A stretch of DNA of 64,000 nt from Candidatus Brevefilum sp. (GTDB lineage: Bacteria > Chloroflexota > Anaerolineae > Anaerolineales > Anaerolineaceae), in the NCBI GenBank assembly GCA_019428905.1, contig JAHYJN010000011.1, positions 1-64,000 of the forward strand, given 5' to 3'. Shown here piece after piece: positions 1 to 35,139 of the stretch. How positions within the stretch are numbered: position 1 is the stretch's first letter; each line of letters starts with the position of its first letter. The notes below the pieces were generated by a model. The model had not been told where the DNA came from. It saw only the letters and a list, made by a program, of their open reading frames with translations, and did no database searches. Made by a program: the position numbers and the translations under genes.

Positions 1-359
1 TACAATATTTTTGATGGAAAGTTGCCACTTTCTGCGCTAACCTTGTGTCTAGCGAGATTCCAAGTCTTTGACTTGTTTAGGGTGCCTTTGGCCCCGTCCT
101 TTTGAGCAACTTTCCATCACTTTTTTTTCCCTGTTTGGTTCCGGCTTGTCCGGGTTAGGTAATAGGTAATAGGTATTAGGAAAAGAAAAAACAATAACCG
201 GATGGTTGTTACCAGCTTGCTGGTAGGAAAACATTAACCGGAGGTTCTTAGCGACACTGGTAGATAGACGGAGGACAGAGGACGGGGGACGGAAATAGGA
301 TGCGATGACATTCCATGGGCGGAGCAGCCCAAGGACAGGAGACGGGAGAGAAGAAAGCA
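1..359. other. gene-free spacer downstream of fibre gene
   Basis: I see no convincing gene here. Both strands have short open frames without a ribosome site and with improbable composition. Positions 154-180 carry a degenerate word repeat of the type taggtaata/ggtatt that recurs in other spacers (31.2 and 60.1 kb). The left end of the prophage is not recognisable in this stretch. Confidence 0.5.
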
Positions 360-26934: not shown

Positions 26935-27052
26935 GTGAATGGTGAATAGAAAAAAGTGAATTGTCATATTCTTTTTACCATTCAAATTATTCCTGAAGAA
27001 AAGCATAGCGGGACCATTCACCACTCACCATTCACTACTCACCACTCACTAT
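26935..27052. repeat. degenerate gtgaatggtgaat word repeats (two orientations)
   Basis: The spacer holds tagtgaatggtgaatag at 26934-26950 and the reverse-complement words attcaccactcaccattcacta at 27018-27058. Similar blocks occur at 6137-6170, 6765-6800, 48640-48665, 48908-48943 and 59953-59990. No gene is present. Confidence 0.7.
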
Positions 27053-27457
27053 TCACAATTCTGGCCTAAACAACCCCAAGGCCACAGCCCGGGCGACCAG
27101 CTGTTGGATGTTGTGCGCGCCCAGGCGGGCTTTCATACCGGCCACATAGCCGCGTACGGTGCGCGGGCGCAAGCCCAAGCGCAGCGCAATCTCGGCGGTG
27201 GTTAACCCCTCGCCCAGCATCACCAGCACCTGGTGCTCCCGGCGGCTGAGCTTGGGCAGGTCCTCCTCGGACACCGGTGCGCTGTGCGTCACCACTACCA
27301 CTTCCCCCTGCTGCCGGGCATACAGCGGACCAGATTCGCCTGGTAGAAAATCCTGCCAACGCCCCTGATTGATCGCCCTGACGATGCGTTCAACGGGCGC
27401 GTCCACCTCGATCACGCCAAAGGCATCCGGCGCTTTAAAGATTAAAATTCTCGTCAT
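27053..27457 (-). CDS. small LuxR-type HTH regulator under a LexA box
   Basis: A 134-residue protein. The C-terminal half is a LuxR/GerE helix-turn-helix (LSRREHQVLVMLGEGLTTAEIALRLG, then RTVRGYVAGMKARLGAHN). The N-terminal about 65 residues (ILIFKAPDAFGVIEVDAPVERIVRAINQGRW) form a small domain I do not recognise; there is no receiver or PAS domain. A perfect LexA palindrome lies 47 bp upstream (27504-27519), identical to the one ahead of the prophage. This suggests damage-induced expression, and the protein may relay the SOS signal to other promoters. Targets are unknown. Confidence 0.82.
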   Translation of the reverse strand: MTRILIFKAPDAFGVIEVDAPVERIVRAINQGRWQDFLPGESGPLYARQQGEVVVVTHSAPVSEEDLPKLSRREHQVLVMLGEGLTTAEIALRLGLRPRTVRGYVAGMKARLGAHNIQQLVARAVALGLFRPEL

Positions 27458-27559: not shown

Positions 27560-28777
27560 TTAAGAAATCAGAACATCTTCACGCGTCTGTCGTTGGTTGA
27601 GCTGCCGAAAGGCGATCACAGCCAGCAACCCGATCACCACACCGCCGAACCAGGGTGCACGCGGACTGACCTGGTCGCTCAAGAATCCCCCTACCACCGG
27701 GCTGATCCCGGCGGCAACATTCCAGCTGAGGCCGTACAGGCTCATGTAGCGCCCGCGTTTATCGATCGGGGCTAGGTTTGCAGCGTATGCACTGGCGCGC
27801 GGCACCACCACCAACTCCCCTAAGGTCATCACGATCATCGCCAGCCAGAAACCCCAAAACCCGTTCGAGAGCGCGATCAGCAGGGGTGCAAATATATAGA
27901 AAAACGCGCCCCAACTCATCACCTGCACAGCAGGGAATCGTTTTGTGCTGCGGGTGATCAGCACCTGGAAGAACACCACCATCAGGGCGTTGGTCGTCGG
28001 AAGCCAGCCGTATAACTGCTCACTGATCCCAAAATTGGATTTGAGGTATACCGACAGCAGCACCCATACCAGGGCAGCCGTCATCTGTACCAGGGTGAAG
28101 GCGCCCACCAGGCCCATAAAAGGTTTATCTTGCAAGGCCGTCCAATAGCCGCGCAGCTGTCCCATCAGGGTCGCTTTCTCCATCACAGCTTCCTTGGGAA
28201 GCGTCTCTTTTGCGAAAAACAGCAGCATCAACCCGTACAGGATCAAGCCGGCCGCTGCGCCGTACATGCCAAAGCTGTAGGACTGGGCCAAAACAAATCC
28301 CCCGATCGCCGGCCCCGCCGCCACACCGATATTGCGCGCCATGCGGATTAGGGCGAAGGCGTCAGCCCGTTTCTCCATCGTGAACAGGTCAGCCAGCATG
28401 GCATCCGTCGCCACATGGTACAGGGGTGAAAAGACCCCGGTACCGCCCAGGATCAAGGCGAAGGCGCCAAAGGTGCTGGCCCGGCTGAGTAAAAAGTAAC
28501 AGACACCGTTACCCATCAAGCCAACAATTAACACGCCCTTGCGCCCCAGCCGGTCGATCACCGGTCCGGCCAATATCGACGAGACCAACCCTGTCCCCGC
28601 GTTGATCGTCATCAGGCTAGCCACCGCCACCAGCGGCAGCGAAAGCGTTTCGCTGGCGTAGATCATTAGAAACGGCCAGATCATCGTCATGCCGATCGTG
28701 GCAATCATCATCCCAAAGAACATCAGCCAGAACTGTTTTGGGGTGTCAGCGTAGTCGCGTTTCAGGCGTTTCAACAT
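27560..28777 (-). CDS. MFS transporter
   Basis: A 405-residue, 12-helix major facilitator, likely a drug/proton antiporter type exporter. It has the loop 2-3 signature region AGPVIDRLGRKGVLIVGLMGN and a long central loop (KETLPKEAVMEKATLMGQLRGYW) between helices 6 and 7. Substrate unknown. The mRNA appears leaderless: TATAAT (28785-28790) ends 7 nt before the ATG. Confidence 0.88.
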   Translation of the reverse strand: MLKRLKRDYADTPKQFWLMFFGMMIATIGMTMIWPFLMIYASETLSLPLVAVASLMTINAGTGLVSSILAGPVIDRLGRKGVLIVGLMGNGVCYFLLSRASTFGAFALILGGTGVFSPLYHVATDAMLADLFTMEKRADAFALIRMARNIGVAAGPAIGGFVLAQSYSFGMYGAAAGLILYGLMLLFFAKETLPKEAVMEKATLMGQLRGYWTALQDKPFMGLVGAFTLVQMTAALVWVLLSVYLKSNFGISEQLYGWLPTTNALMVVFFQVLITRSTKRFPAVQVMSWGAFFYIFAPLLIALSNGFWGFWLAMIVMTLGELVVVPRASAYAANLAPIDKRGRYMSLYGLSWNVAAGISPVVGGFLSDQVSPRAPWFGGVVIGLLAVIAFRQLNQRQTREDVLIS

Positions 28778-28784
28778 GCGGAGA

Positions 28785-28790
28785 ATTATA
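28785..28790 (-). promoter_or_regulatory. -10 box for leaderless MFS mRNA
   Basis: TATAAT on the minus strand, separated from the ATG of the MFS gene by exactly 7 nt (28778-28784). No room for a Shine-Dalgarno site. Confidence 0.55.
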
Positions 28791-28939
28791 ACCGCAAGGA
28801 TAAGGAAAGGATGATGAATTTAACGAAATTTCAGTCTCAGTGCACCATCAAATCCAATGTGAACAGATAAGATGAATGATTATTTTGACTGCGGTTCACT
28901 CGTTAATTCAACAACTTTGGAAACTCGGATGCAAAGAAA

Positions 28940-29640
28940 TATCCCCCCCAACCCCCCGCATGCAGGGGGCTAGGGGGGGGGTAAAGCCAACTCAGGTTGT
29001 GTGGCAATACAGCTTGGAAATCGTTTCCCAACCTAAGCGAGACATGACCCAAATCCAAATTTACTACCTCATAGTAAATACACCCGTTTTCAACGAAAAG
29101 ACTGAATATTTCATAAAATGCAGTTTCACTCAACACCAAGAATTTCCATCCAACCCCCCGCATGCGGGGGCCAGGGGGGGAAAAGGTCAACTCAGGTTGT
29201 GTGGCAATACAGCTTGAAAATCGTTTCCCAACCTAAGCGAGACATGACCCAAATCCAAATTTAATACCTCATAGTAAATACACCCGTTTTCAACGAAAAG
29301 ACTGAATATTTCATAAAATGCAGTTTCACACAACACCAAGAATTTCCATCCAACCCCCCGCATGCGGGGGGCCAGGGGGGTACTCATAAGATCAATCAGT
29401 CATCTACGTTGATAAAAACCCAGTTACTTGAAAATTTGCTTTCAATTCAATCATTAAGTTTTCCAAAATCTAAATTTATTTTCGAAACCAAGATCAACCC
29501 CCCGCCTTGTTGAAATGTTAGAATTTGAACCAAGTTACGGTTTCCTCACAAACCAATCTCTTATTTTCGCGATAAAATTCCAGTTTCACACAACACCAAG
29601 AATTTCCATCCAACCCCCCGCATGCGGGGGGCCAGGGGGG
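28940..29640. repeat. AT-rich block with 200-bp direct repeats and GC-rich palindromes
   Basis: Two nearly identical units start at 28988 and 29188 (period exactly 200 bp), each from caactcaggttgtgtggcaa to a GC palindrome. The perfect palindrome CCCCCCGCATGCGGGGGG occurs at 29354-29371 and 29614-29631, and shorter variants at 29154-29170 and 28952-28967. Each is followed by (c/t)(c/t)aggggggg. The 35 bases preceding the palindrome (cagtttcacacaacaccaag..) are shared by three copies. Short open frames here look non-coding. The block directly precedes the Hint-DUF559 gene. Confidence 0.85.
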
Positions 29641-29754
29641 AAGTTCAATCTTTCGTCTATGTTGATCAAATCCAAATCTCTTAAGAATTCGCTCCTATAA
29701 AAACCTGAGATTTCCTCCAAAACCGGTTATGATTATCACACCACGACCTTGTAG

Positions 29755-30660
29755 ATGATGGAAAATTCCCACATGACTTTAAAATCTGTTCTGGTTTCAG
29801 ATACAAAAATTTTTTGTCTCCATCAACCTTACAGACAAGCTCAATCAGACAGCCAATCCCTACCATCAAATAAGACAGAAGAACCAAAGATCCAAACCTA
29901 CTTCAAACCCGTCAAAGAAATTCAAGCCGGCGATCGTGTACTAGGACTCGATCAATTACCCAACCTTGTGAAACATTCCACATCCTTCACCTACGAAGGT
30001 CCTCTTATCGCCATCAAACATAAAGCATCTGTAGATTATGAGTATATTCTGCCTGAAAGCCTGATTCTCATCAAACGCCGCGTCCAATCACTGAGCACTT
30101 CTGGTGGTTGGTCTAGCATCCCATCGGGCCATTTCAGCCGAGCTAGGGAATTACGTAATCGGATGACACCACCTGAATATAAACTTTGGGCGATCTTGGT
30201 TAATAAAGGACTGGGATTAAAATTTCGCCCTCAGCATCCAATTGGCCCTTATATCGTTGATTTTTTTGCCCGGCAAGCCGGTTTGGTGATTGAGGTTGAC
30301 GGCGAGTTAGCGCACAGCACACCTATGCAACAAGAAGATGATCACAATCGTCAGACATGGCTTGAGTCATTGGGTTTAACGGTACTACGATACACAGCAA
30401 GTGAAATTTTCTCAGACCTCGAAGGGGTCGTGGCAGATATTTCTTATCACCTGCATGAATGTATTGTGAATCAGATCCCCCAAGCACAATGGATTTATGC
30501 TCAACACATCAAAAACATCGATTCGCTCTACATAGGTCCTGACAAAGATCTCACCCAGGTGATAAAGGTAAAAGAGATTCGGCTTATTATCCAATGCTAT
30601 CAAATAATTTTCGAAAATCCAGGTAACTTCATCACAACATCTTTGATCCACAAAGTTTGA
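29755..30660 (+). CDS. free-standing Hint/intein-like protein with DUF559 (Vsr-like) endonuclease domain
   Basis: A 301-residue protein. Residues 21-108 resemble the N-terminal half of an intein/Hint fold: Cys21-Leu22, then FKPVKEIQAGDRVLGLDQ (50-67), then a block-B-like position YILPESLILIKRR where the usual T-x-x-H is replaced by L-x-x-S. Residues about 127-235 are a DUF559 nuclease (RELRNRMTPPEYKLW, FRPQHPIGPYIVDFFARQ, LVIEVDGELAH, LGLTVLRYTASEI) with candidate catalytic Asp169, Glu180 and Asp182. Residues 281-301 (CYQIIFENPGNFITTSLIHKV) match intein blocks F/G, but the terminal Asn is Lys. No extein gene surrounds it. The splicing residues are degenerate while the nuclease core looks intact, so it may be a homing-type mobile element or its relic. 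DUF559/Vsr-related homing nucleases have been described with split inteins. Confidence 0.72.
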   Translation: MMENSHMTLKSVLVSDTKIFCLHQPYRQAQSDSQSLPSNKTEEPKIQTYFKPVKEIQAGDRVLGLDQLPNLVKHSTSFTYEGPLIAIKHKASVDYEYILPESLILIKRRVQSLSTSGGWSSIPSGHFSRARELRNRMTPPEYKLWAILVNKGLGLKFRPQHPIGPYIVDFFARQAGLVIEVDGELAHSTPMQQEDDHNRQTWLESLGLTVLRYTASEIFSDLEGVVADISYHLHECIVNQIPQAQWIYAQHIKNIDSLYIGPDKDLTQVIKVKEIRLIIQCYQIIFENPGNFITTSLIHKV

Positions 30661-30706
30661 CTTAAGCAAAATCTGGTGAATTTTCCCCTCTCCCCCCATC
30701 GGCCAG

Positions 30707-31057
30707 CTACCCCAAATAAAACAGCTGATGACCGACAAAAATCAGCCGGGTCGGGCGGATGCAGGGCGCTACATCCGGTAGGGCAGCCAGCAGCGCAGCC
30801 ACATAAACCGCGTTAAACGCTGAAAACTCCTCGGCGATCGCCACCCCTGTCAGCTCACGGCGTTCTACCAACGCGCTGAAAGCGTCCTCCAGCGTCTCGC
30901 GTTGAATTGTGCGCGGCTTTCCACTCACCGCAGGGGAGAGCACCACGCCTACGTCATTTACAGACACCACGTCAAACGGCCGCCCGCGATCCAACGTTTT
31001 CAACTCGCGTCCATCCAGCCGGCAAATACTTGGCCAAAATTGCTCTTGTGTTAGCAA
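30707..31057 (-). CDS. conserved hypothetical protein
   Basis: A 116-residue soluble protein. The N-terminal part (CRLDGRELKTLDRGRPFDVVSVNDVGVVLSPAVSGKPRTIQRETLE) looks like a small beta-barrel fold that reads as one domain; the C-terminal part (GVAIAEEFSAFNAVYVAALLAALPDVAPCI) is helical. I do not recognise a function. No strong ribosome site is seen before the ATG at 31057. It lies between the Hint-DUF559 insert and the YgjP-type gene, on the opposite strand to both. Confidence 0.5.
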   Translation of the reverse strand: MLTQEQFWPSICRLDGRELKTLDRGRPFDVVSVNDVGVVLSPAVSGKPRTIQRETLEDAFSALVERRELTGVAIAEEFSAFNAVYVAALLAALPDVAPCIRPTRLIFVGHQLFYLG

Positions 31058-32754: not shown

Positions 32755-33336
32755 TCACAGCTCGCAATAGCGGTCAATATGCTTCCCGATCACGGCCAGG
32801 CTGTCCGCCCAGAACCCCTTGGACCGGATGTCGATCCCAAGCCGGGCTGCCAGTTCTGCCGCCGGGGCTTCACCCGTACTCGACAGCAGCTGCTTGTAGT
32901 CCGGAACAAATTCCTCTCCCCGCTGCTGGTAGATGGCATACAGCCCTACACCAAACAGCTTGCCGAAGGCATACACCCTGCGCGTTGTGGGCTGGTTTTC
33001 ACCAGCCCACACTCACCTTCACTTCTATTTGAATTCTTACAATCTTTACAGCTCGCAATAGCGGTCGATATGCTTCCCGATCACGGCCAGGCTGTCCGCC
33101 CAGAACCCCTTGGACCGGATATCGATGCCAAACCGGGCTGCCAGTTCTGCCGCCGGGGCTTCACCCGTGCTTGACAATAGCTGCTTGTAGTCCGGGACAA
33201 ATTCCTCTCCCTGCTGCTGGTAGATGGCATACAACCCCACACCAAACAGCTTGCCGAAGGCCTACACCCTGCGCGCTGTGGGCTGGCATTCGCCAGCCCA
33301 CACCCATCTTCACTTCTATTTGAATTCTTACAATCT
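32755..33336 (-). pseudogene. two extra tandem copies of the pepF 3' end
   Basis: Two head-to-tail 291-bp units (from 32755 and from 33046) each repeat the last about 65 codons and stop of pepF (GLYAIYQQ..GEEFVPDYKQL to HIDRYCEL) at very high identity. They are followed on the 5' side by a non-pepF junction containing TGTGGGCTGG/CCAGCCCACA hairpins (32986-33011 and 33277-33302). The functional gene ends at 33337, exactly one period further. The copies lack a start and the catalytic region, so they are non-functional duplicates. Confidence 0.9.
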
Positions 33337-35139
33337 TTACAGCTCACAGTAGCGGTCGATATGCTTCCCAATCACGGCTAGGCTGTCCGCCCAGAACCCC
33401 TTGGATCGAATATCAATGCCAAACCGGGCTGCCAGTTCTGCCGCCGGGGCTTCACCCGTGCTTGACAATAGCTGCTTGTAGTCCGGGACAAATTCCTCTC
33501 CCCGCTGCTGGTAGATGGCATACAGCCCTACACCAAACAGCTTGCCGAAGGCATAGGGGAAATTATAAAACGATAGGCCAGCGTAGTAATAATGCGGCTT
33601 CCAAGTCCACATAAACTTATGGCGATAAGCCGGGTCCAACCCCTCGCCATAGGTTTGCGCCTGGGCATCTTCCATAATCTCACACAACTCATCCGCGCTC
33701 AATTCCGACCTAATCCGGCGTTCAAAAACCTCTTTCTCGAACAGGAAGCGTGAGTAAATATCCACGATCACCTGCGCATCGCCAATCAGCGCAGTTTCCA
33801 GCAGGCCCAGCTCGGCCTCGGGTTCCCGAATCGTATCCATCACCGCATTGAAGACAATTGTTTCGCACATGATCGAAGCGGTCTCCGCCATGGTCATTGG
33901 CGTCTGCCGCTGCAGCGGTGTTTTACCGGCCTGGAACATATTGTAATTGTGATACCCATGCCCCAGCTCGTGGGCAATAGTGAATACCTGGTCGAGGGAG
34001 CCGTCAAAATTGCATAAAATTCGAGACTCTTTAACCTCTGGAACAGACATGCAGAATGCGCCGCCGCGCTTGCCCGGCCGCTGTTCGGCATCGATCCAGT
34101 TATTTTCAAAGGCGGCCTGCGCAAACGCCTTCAAATCTGGTGAAAACGTTTCAAAATTCGTCAGGATGAAATCAGCCGCTTCGCCAAAGGAGTAGGATTT
34201 ATCCAGCTTCCCGGTGGGGGCAAACAGGTTCCACCACGGCAGCGCCTCACCACCAAAGCGGGCCGCTTTGGCCTTAAAATAGCGGCGGAAGCGGGGGAAG
34301 GCGTCTTTCATCGCTTCCATCATCACATCCAGTGTCTCGCGGTCGATCCGTGCCTGGTCAATCGGCCCGTGGATCGCATCCGTCCGACCCCGGTGCTTAT
34401 TGAGGGTGTTTACCCAGCCCTTGACGCCGTTCATGCTGGCTGCCAGCGGCTCCTTGATCGACTCCCAAGCTTCAAACTCGGCTGCATATGCCCGCTTGCG
34501 GACGTCCTCATCGGGATGAGCATGCAGGTTAATCAGGGCGGGCATCGGCAGGGTCTGCAACTCGCCCTCCAGCTCAAATTCAACCGACTTTTGTGAGGTC
34601 ACGGTCCCTTGCAGTTTAGACCAGGCATTCGCCCCCGAAAGACTGAGCTCACTCGAAAGGATCTCCTCTTTTTCACTCATCAAATATTGGCTCTGCTCGG
34701 CGATTTCCATCACCGGGAAGGCATGGGCTTGTGCGCTGCCGCCCAATGCCAGCGCTGCCGGCAATTGATCCTTAATTTGACCGACCCACGCTTCCAGCAG
34801 GACATTCACTTTATGGATTTCAACCATCACCTGGTCGAATTGCGAACTCATGCGCATCGCATCCTGGTTATAAGAATCGGTTGAGATGAAGGAATGAAAA
34901 TAAGAACGGATGGTCGCTGCCTTTTCCAACAGGCCGTTCAACCGGTCAACCATGCTGCTAACCGCCTGGTTGACGGCTTCAGGTGGGCTGCTGGCATCCA
35001 CCGGCGCTAATGCCACCTGGTAATGCTGCCGCAGCGATTCAGTGGCAGTTTTGACCCACTCGATATCCTTGGCCAATTCAGCCGAATCCAGCCCAGGGTA
35101 AACATTCGAGAGATCCCAGCGTGGGGGTTTGGTTGTCAT
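33337..35139 (-). CDS. pepF: oligoendopeptidase F family M3 metallopeptidase
   Basis: A 600-residue cytoplasmic zinc peptidase that degrades oligopeptides. The zinc motif FTIAHELGHGYHNY (HExxH) is followed by the third ligand Glu in MAETASIMCETIVFN. N-terminal MTTKPPRWDLSNVYPGL, SFGEAADFILTNFETFSPD, and C-terminal PDYKQLLSSTGEAPAAELAARFG are family typical. GGAAGGAG precedes the ATG. Its 3' end is tandemly triplicated downstream. It lies behind the PHP phosphoesterase in the same direction with a 126-bp gap. Confidence 0.93.
   Translation of the reverse strand: MTTKPPRWDLSNVYPGLDSAELAKDIEWVKTATESLRQHYQVALAPVDASSPPEAVNQAVSSMVDRLNGLLEKAATIRSYFHSFISTDSYNQDAMRMSSQFDQVMVEIHKVNVLLEAWVGQIKDQLPAALALGGSAQAHAFPVMEIAEQSQYLMSEKEEILSSELSLSGANAWSKLQGTVTSQKSVEFELEGELQTLPMPALINLHAHPDEDVRKRAYAAEFEAWESIKEPLAASMNGVKGWVNTLNKHRGRTDAIHGPIDQARIDRETLDVMMEAMKDAFPRFRRYFKAKAARFGGEALPWWNLFAPTGKLDKSYSFGEAADFILTNFETFSPDLKAFAQAAFENNWIDAEQRPGKRGGAFCMSVPEVKESRILCNFDGSLDQVFTIAHELGHGYHNYNMFQAGKTPLQRQTPMTMAETASIMCETIVFNAVMDTIREPEAELGLLETALIGDAQVIVDIYSRFLFEKEVFERRIRSELSADELCEIMEDAQAQTYGEGLDPAYRHKFMWTWKPHYYYAGLSFYNFPYAFGKLFGVGLYAIYQQRGEEFVPDYKQLLSSTGEAPAAELAARFGIDIRSKGFWADSLAVIGKHIDRYCEL

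Follow-up and report, generated by a model that had tools for sequence, protein, structure and literature searches.

Introduction

The nuclease I-Bth0305I is intron-borne, and work by Dassa in 2009 reportedly associated Vsr-like nucleases with split inteins. We know of no Vsr-like or EDxHD homing endonuclease that forms a whole, solo Hint protein. In yeast, HO and WHO are intein-like proteins without exteins that do not splice, are expressed from genes of their own and hold a nuclease within a Hint-type splicing domain whose C-terminal motif G has been lost, according to the parts of the source available to us (PMC7282813). In these respects they resemble P0001, a putative free-standing Hint-DUF559 protein encoded in a 64,000-nucleotide stretch of DNA from Candidatus Brevefilum sp. 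that was analysed as a whole (hereafter, the window). They differ from it in nuclease, LAGLIDADG superfamily in HO and WHO and DUF559 in P0001; in carrying a zinc finger, whereas P0001 has no C-terminal zinc finger and its chain ends in block G; and in the setting of WHO, which sits downstream of FBA1 with fragments of that gene's 3' end, whereas P0001 has hairpin repeats beside it (PMC7282813, as far as the accessible text goes). A Pfam search of P0001 returned no LAGLIDADG family at E≤10.

Four inteins in methyltransferase genes (L069-L072) share the domain order of P0001 and can be aligned with it over nearly its whole length; they have exteins, an initial Cys (C1), the motif T(A/D)DH and a terminal His-Asn followed by Cys, and of these features P0001 retains the His alone. 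REP/TnpA-REP (RAYT) systems are marked by bracketing by repeat copies in opposite orientation. Like our locus, they tie dispersed palindromic repeats to a DNA-processing enzyme (PMC8266576, available in part); their enzyme is a HUH transposase, whereas the gene beside the repeats here is Hint-DUF559. Unlike REP sequences, repeats of the P0001 kind also lie in frame within proteins.

We interpret P0001 as an intein-derived, apparently splicing-dead, free-standing endonuclease with a DUF559 (Vsr-like) domain inside a Hint fold, forming a homing-type element with its repeats, and assign this reading a probability of roughly 0.66. As far as sequence and a predicted model can carry it, support comes from kinship with inteins, the absence of exteins, lost splicing residues, the Hint fold, nuclease residues, evolutionary constraint and an insertion containing hairpins.

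P0001 contains a DUF559 nuclease domain

The coding part of P0001 occupies 29755-30657 (+), and the coordinates of the original prediction hold (Table 1). Pfam PF04480 (DUF559) matches residues 128-232 at E 7.5e-27 (93.8 bits against a cut-off of 20.6) and is the only family above its cut-off, with no further separate domain. The five residues listed for the domain in Table 1 belong to the 15 columns that do not vary across an alignment of 24 sequences, in agreement with the earlier claim of a DUF559 nuclease with intact-looking acidic residues. Foldseek links the nuclease fold to I-Bth0305I (3r3p; E 1.2e-3, probability 1.00), and the DUF559 structure 3hrl aligns to residues 136-238 of the P0001 model (Z 12.8, 1.8 A over 93 residues). 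DNA cleavage by P0001 is an inference, as there are no cleavage data.

Table 1. Features at the P0001 locus, in window coordinates. Block names in the Hint N-terminal half are presumed.
Feature	Position	Strand	Basis or remark
Stretch holding the insertion relative to congeners	28793..30706		exact ends not fixed
Hairpin repeat copy 1, nearly symmetric (C7-AA-C6-GCATGC-AG5-CTA-G9)	28941..28981	+	
Two 200-bp direct repeats, 96% alike, one hairpin each	28974..29373	+	
Hairpin repeat copy 2	29150..29180	+	
Hairpin repeat copy 3	29350..29380	+	
Hairpin repeat copy 4, ~115 bp before the P0001 start codon	29610..29640	+	
P0001, free-standing Hint-DUF559 protein, 301 aa + stop	29755..30660	+	ORF, Pfam, model
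Hint N-terminal half, residues ~11-123	29785..30123	+	structural and sequence alignment; extent inferred
Hint N-half parts: block A (residue 1 = V12), loop ~26-45, N2-like block QAGDRV 57-62, block B LPES 99-102			
DUF559 PD-(D/E)XK-type nuclease domain; D169, E180, D182, H187, R199 present	30136..30453	+	Pfam, alignment
Hint C-terminal half, residues ~237-301, blocks F/G, ends H299-K300-V301	30463..30657	+	alignments; extent inferred
Weak candidate for a decayed inverted repeat, right end, TTCCCCTCTCCCCCCAT	30683..30699		by eye

A predicted Hint fold surrounds the nuclease

Neither Pfam nor NCBIfam gave a Hint-family match to P0001, whole or as halves, even at E≤10, so the claim of a Hint fold needed other, indirect evidence. 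An AlphaFold2 model built from 24 alignment rows (pLDDT 83.4, pTM 0.78) was compared with Hint structures (VIA-align), and these aligned from residue ~9-12 to 301. They included the intein-like domain 2lwy (Z 15.9, rmsd 2.2 A, 129 residues), the gp41-1 intein (Z 15.7) and hedgehog (Z 15.5); Hint-fold rows among the 50 structural matches listed for the model had Z 12.6-15.9. The alignment output gives first and last aligned residues only; that the two halves around the nuclease form one Hint fold is an inference drawn from the number of residues aligned (122-140) together with 3hrl taking 136-238. Among homologues, the intein C-terminal profile TIGR01443 (intein_Cterm) scored above its cut-off in all five near-full-length sequences scanned (L069-L072 and L126), and PF14890 (Intein_splicing) matched them at E 6.6e-6 to 8.5e-4, below its cut-off. 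The Hint/intein-like character proposed for both halves thus gained nothing from direct profile search of P0001, yet the model displays a Hint fold and the homologues speak for it; the fold is predicted and not a solved structure.

Splicing residues are lost and no exteins remain

The altered residues of the original prediction (block B L/S for T/H, terminal Lys for Asn) were confirmed by alignment: block B reads L99-P-E-S102 and not T-x-x-H, and the chain ends H299-K300-V301-stop and not H-N followed by C. Only the penultimate His is kept, and there is no C-terminal Asn followed by Cys, Ser or Thr. In many structural alignments intein residue 1 corresponds to V12, not Cys, Ser or Thr, and the first nucleophile is therefore also missing; Ser11 adjoins this position, making a one-residue shift conceivable. 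The absence of an extein host gene likewise stands. The 301-aa ORF starts 11 residues before position 1 and stops at block G, without in-frame exteins.

When 400 genomes of the phylum were searched with a two-row profile built from P0001 and its homologue in a congener, four further matches besides the window appeared, over positions ~50-305 of 306. All four (L069-L072) are inteins of N6/N4 DNA-methyltransferase genes, each continuous in frame with its exteins; the methyltransferase family PF01555 matches L070 at E 5.6e-22, and the exteins are short in L069. The sequence runs TTDP(GD/NG)LV(L/F)D(P/A)T and on into CVRKG(T/S), C1 and block B T(A/D)DH are intact, and HN precedes CGS(G/V)TTAY of the methyltransferase. 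P0001 is 31-37% identical to these inteins and L126.

The congener homologue (L005, genome G008) is 37% identical to P0001 and also lacks exteins; a record labelled Anaerolineaceae bacterium 46_22 (L125) has the same protein. Its start lies ~15 residues ahead of a Cys that occupies or adjoins position 1; block B reads LPEN, and the chain stops at block G with the C-terminus F-H-I. The two solo proteins have in common the block-B change LPE(S/N) and the absence of the terminal Asn, and an eight-sequence tree separates them from the six others with support 100/99. As they group together and share losses, the losses most simply precede their split. A model of the second solo protein (L125), made without an alignment, had a pLDDT of 35 and was of no use.

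No solo member beyond these two was found in searches of phylum genomes, genus genomes and genome contigs, and 2 of the 16 genus genomes, not all of which are complete, carry the solo gene. A scan of genome contigs with P0001 alone gave no match; a scan with the two-row alignment gave L125-L127 and 26 DUF559-only loci. L126 (4690-6101) and L127 (4400-6200) are broken, frameshifted inteins of the Hint-DUF559 type in which palindromic repeats abound; HN followed by CGCGTTT of a methylase survives in L126, and L127 ends HR with no recognisable extein. Viral contigs scanned with the Hint-DUF559 alignment gave three matches, all DUF559-only, and none when scanned with part of the Hint N half. Two phage-labelled records, one apparently reaching the Hint C half, were rejected, both holding DUF559 genes of ~125 aa beside bacterial-type genes. 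The phage-labelled L256 and L257 (MT835749.1, MT835756.1) read like bacterial chromosome; judged by eye, their ORFs resemble ABC transporter, peptidoglycan-binding and exonuclease genes. The branching of a 111-row DUF559 tree was unresolved: the Hint rows need three changes, and a single origin was not rejected (p-AU 0.63).

P0001 and its hairpin repeats form a lineage-specific insertion

From the start codon of an MFS-like gene (28777; named by eye) to the ORF at 30707-31057, the window has a gap of 1,929 bp, against 152, 52, 94, 53 and 431 bp in the five congeners whose stretch covered both neighbours (L218, L219, L222, L223 and L224, respectively). The L223 value rests on an extrapolated MFS start, and four congener loci (L220, L221, L225, L226) were not counted because an ORF like 30707-31057 was not seen there. 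This difference identifies gene and repeats as a lineage-specific insertion, roughly 1.5-1.9 kb in size and present or absent at one site among relatives. The candidate repeat at its right end was listed by neither the strict hairpin pattern nor the unit search. Mobility of P0001 is inferred from the insertion and the repeat association, without an observed movement event of the gene.

The repeat block originally noticed beside P0001 is real and consists of four copies of a 31-nt hairpin unit (starts at 28948, 29150, 29350 and 29610), C6-GCATGC-G6-CCA-G6 with variants. We counted 19 matches to the unit pattern in the window against 0.82 expected, 18 of them in the repeat block (overlapping registers, both strands). 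Genome-wide, the hairpin pattern at ≤2 mismatches gave 36 strand-hits, against 4 for a reversed control pattern. The hairpins are no more stable than shuffles of the same composition, and Rfam found nothing at gathering scores in 28700-30800.

A homologue elsewhere with the same repeats, which the original prediction had suggested seeking, exists in G008: the solo ORF there contains one unit towards its 5' end, and a second, inverted unit follows immediately on its stop codon. There is no clear repeat downstream of P0001 in the window, so the bracket seen in the congener is absent here. In three of the methyltransferase inteins (L069-L071) a similarly built hairpin, C6-G-NNNN-C-G6, lies 39 bases downstream of the first C1 base, and the fourth (L072) has a shorter one at 44 bases; this hairpin in the loop after block A recurs in the congener solo and not in P0001.

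Other repeats were noted in the window. Short intergenic tandem repeats with a 14-bp period, ACCATTCACYACTC-like, lie at 27013-27061. At 32757-33629 the 3' end of an oligoendopeptidase F-like gene (33337-35139, - strand; name by eye) is present as three tandem copies of 291 bp (100/93/75%). This recalls the FBA1 fragments beside yeast WHO; other genes intervene before P0001.

DUF559 genes are commonly flanked by palindromic repeats

Across DUF559 loci in general, the 250-bp left and right flanks of the domain core shared a repeat (local score ≥40) in 41 of 90 cases; the corresponding figure for control placements within these loci was 10 of 633. A match was present in 105 loci, of which 15 were excluded because they were identical to others or lay too close to an end. 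When small-ORF cores served as the control at a score ≥34, the counts were 52 of 103 for DUF559 and 5 of 107 for small ORFs (p 1e-14), after 23 of 126 loci had been dropped on the same grounds. A unit of hairpin plus second G-tract occurred 20, 14, 9 and 16 times in the flanks of 112 loci (left +, left -, right +, right -), against 0, 0, 1 and 0 in flanks 900 bp further out. Under an earlier, stricter control that took ORF ends as flanks (score ≥34), the excess was not significant (4 of 23, against 3 of 41 small ORFs, p 0.24, and 4 of 94 for all ORFs), because the repeats often sit inside the DUF559 ORF. Distance was then taken from the domain core for that reason, a choice made after seeing the result.

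As these tests followed sight of the repeats, we ran a plasmid sample with criteria fixed beforehand. Repeats bracketed 14 of 19 DUF559 loci against 1 of 38 controls (p 2e-8), the hairpin unit was found at 10 of 19 against 1 of 19, and the inverted match outscored the direct one in 13 of the 14 bracketed loci. The sample, from Cyanobacteriota, Alpha- and Gammaproteobacteria and Deinococcota, represents 19 of 44 records, with Neisseria, E. coli and others left out; the plan of one record per species was departed from for Synechocystis sp. B12 and Sphingomonas parapaucimobilis, with two genes each, and the flank-score control placements were outside the pre-set criteria. Kinship among loci is uncorrected in all of these DUF559-palindrome tests.

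In four genomes the linker of methionine synthase (metH) carries an in-frame DUF559, with palindromic repeats on both sides in G104, G321 and G795 and seen on the left side only in G042. The linker in G773 holds one bare hairpin, and that in G739, G794, G749, G736 and G044 is short (18-39 bp); metH of G037, also without DUF559, was left out of the DNA comparison. The metH comparison shows an in-frame insertion. DUF559 is likewise in frame in type ISP, MmeI-like and Eco57I-like enzymes (L076, L082, L119) and in DUF1156 proteins (L089, L090). Pro/Gly-rich peptides derived from palindromic repeats stand beside DUF559 in most of L094, L197-L200 (metH), L076, L082, L119, L089 and L090. DUF559 genes also occur inside ordinary clusters (L261, L264, L268, L269, L272, L275), namely sufB-sufC, transhydrogenase, hpa and paaD-paaZ; the hpa cases are three Deinococcus, at different places.

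The repeats might instead have been moved by a REP-type transposase or by replication slippage and have gathered near DUF559 in dispensable DNA, with the nuclease uninvolved. Their distribution lends this some weight: most copies found are solitary and away from DUF559 genes, and no unit turned up within the 10 or 11 kb surrounding the genome's remaining three DUF559 genes, of which two lie on C119 and one on C27. In the genus, the unit was found in 6 of 16 genomes, including G006 and G012, which lack Hint-DUF559, and the repeat family also occurs at one site each in G003 and G007, again without that gene. However, small ORFs in the same loci were bracketed far less often than DUF559 (5 of 107 against 52 of 103), the pre-set plasmid sample repeated the contrast, and its matches were predominantly inverted. 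On this evidence we consider a mover other than the nuclease unlikely, while still the strongest of the alternatives.

Constraint persists after the loss of splicing residues

Comparing the codons of P0001 with those of the congener solo, we obtained identities at positions 1/2/3 of 0.46/0.65/0.29 for the Hint N part (residues 45-123), 0.59/0.74/0.31 for the DUF559 part and 0.38/0.61/0.31 for the Hint C part. Residues 1-44, block A included, are hardly conserved (0.31/0.45/0.28; amino-acid identity 10% over 29 codons). Third positions are saturated, so that dN/dS could be computed for one part only, the Hint N part (NG86; dN 0.73, dS 3.67).

These values bear on whether P0001 is a decaying relic, an intein expelled from its host gene that is drifting and open by chance. 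Every splicing residue examined is gone except the penultimate His, two copies only are known, their block-A end has little conservation left, and frameshifts and abundant repeats mark the broken relatives L126 and L127, all as expected of decay. Yet the frames of the two solo proteins, which are 37% identical and share the loss of splicing residues, have stayed open over ~300 codons since that loss, and in the nuclease as well as the two main Hint parts the first and second codon positions agree better than the third. Open frames with positions 1 and 2 constrained in most of the Hint fold argue against a relic, which we judge improbable; the evidence favours an independent nuclease.

A further alternative is a domesticated host enzyme, such as a Vsr-like repair or methylation-linked nuclease, that is no longer mobile. 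There are precedents: the Caulobacter DUF559 protein VsrA has a functional link to a solitary cytosine methyltransferase (PMC12907096, from the portion available), and HO represents a domesticated form related to the WHO elements (PMC7282813, with the same restriction). The patchy occurrence of the solo gene in the genus and the lineage-specific insertion are nevertheless unlike a shared host function, and we give domestication little credence. A bacterial intein-like (BIL) autoprocessing domain still cleaving itself or attached peptides can be set aside almost entirely: a BIL domain is among the best structural rows listed (Z 15.9, tied with inteins), His299 is kept and Ser11 lies beside position 1, but other residues stand in place of the T and H of block B, of the nucleophile at position 1 and of the terminal Asn, and nothing downstream of P0001 is there to be cleaved off.

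Discussion

The original prediction saw here an intein that had become an independent mobile nuclease or a relic. Kinship with methyltransferase inteins, losses shared with the second solo protein and constraint sustain that view, with mobility only inferred. If P0001 is the free-standing, intein-derived endonuclease that we propose, its gene and the hairpin repeats may act as one homing-type element. The DUF559 domain would cut DNA at or near a hairpin repeat or an unoccupied site, and repair would copy the repeat-bounded element into the cut. The repeats could serve as the ends of the element or as homology arms, and the Hint scaffold might be retained for folding or as a surface for DNA recognition or contact.

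A wider reading is possible, and we offer it tentatively. DUF559 may be the nuclease of widespread homing-type elements, bounded by G/C-tract hairpins that are often oppositely oriented. The elements would insert into operons and, keeping the frame and not splicing, into coding linkers, for example the one in methionine synthase. One branch would have gained splicing within an intein, and P0001 would be a descendant that gave splicing up and is again free-standing and repeat-associated.

In the part of the text accessible to us, PMC9403480 puts a DUF559 gene of Thermosynechococcus TA-1 in the EDxHD homing endonuclease family, in a section on inteins, which supports the mobile reading and lowers its novelty. 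As far as the available portions of these papers extend, PMC12308824 describes repeated transposase/DUF559 segments of Legionella as recombination hotspots, and PMC8861277 mentions DUF559 in passing in Aliivibrio. In the open-licence literature searched we found no description of a DUF559 homing-element class of this kind, no palindrome-bounded DUF559 element, no link of DUF559 to palindromes, no solo Hint-DUF559 protein and no paper on stand-alone inteins; RepRanger (PMC12306157) contains no mention of endonuclease, DUF559 or Vsr.

The passage from intein to free nuclease is known from yeast HO and WHO. P0001 would add an example from bacteria, with a nuclease unrelated to theirs, and this path would therefore have been taken more than once. 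The association with palindromes gives DUF559, a common and poorly understood family, a testable role. It also points to DUF559 as an enzyme that might spread G/C-tract palindromes, among them copies embedded in frame in proteins.
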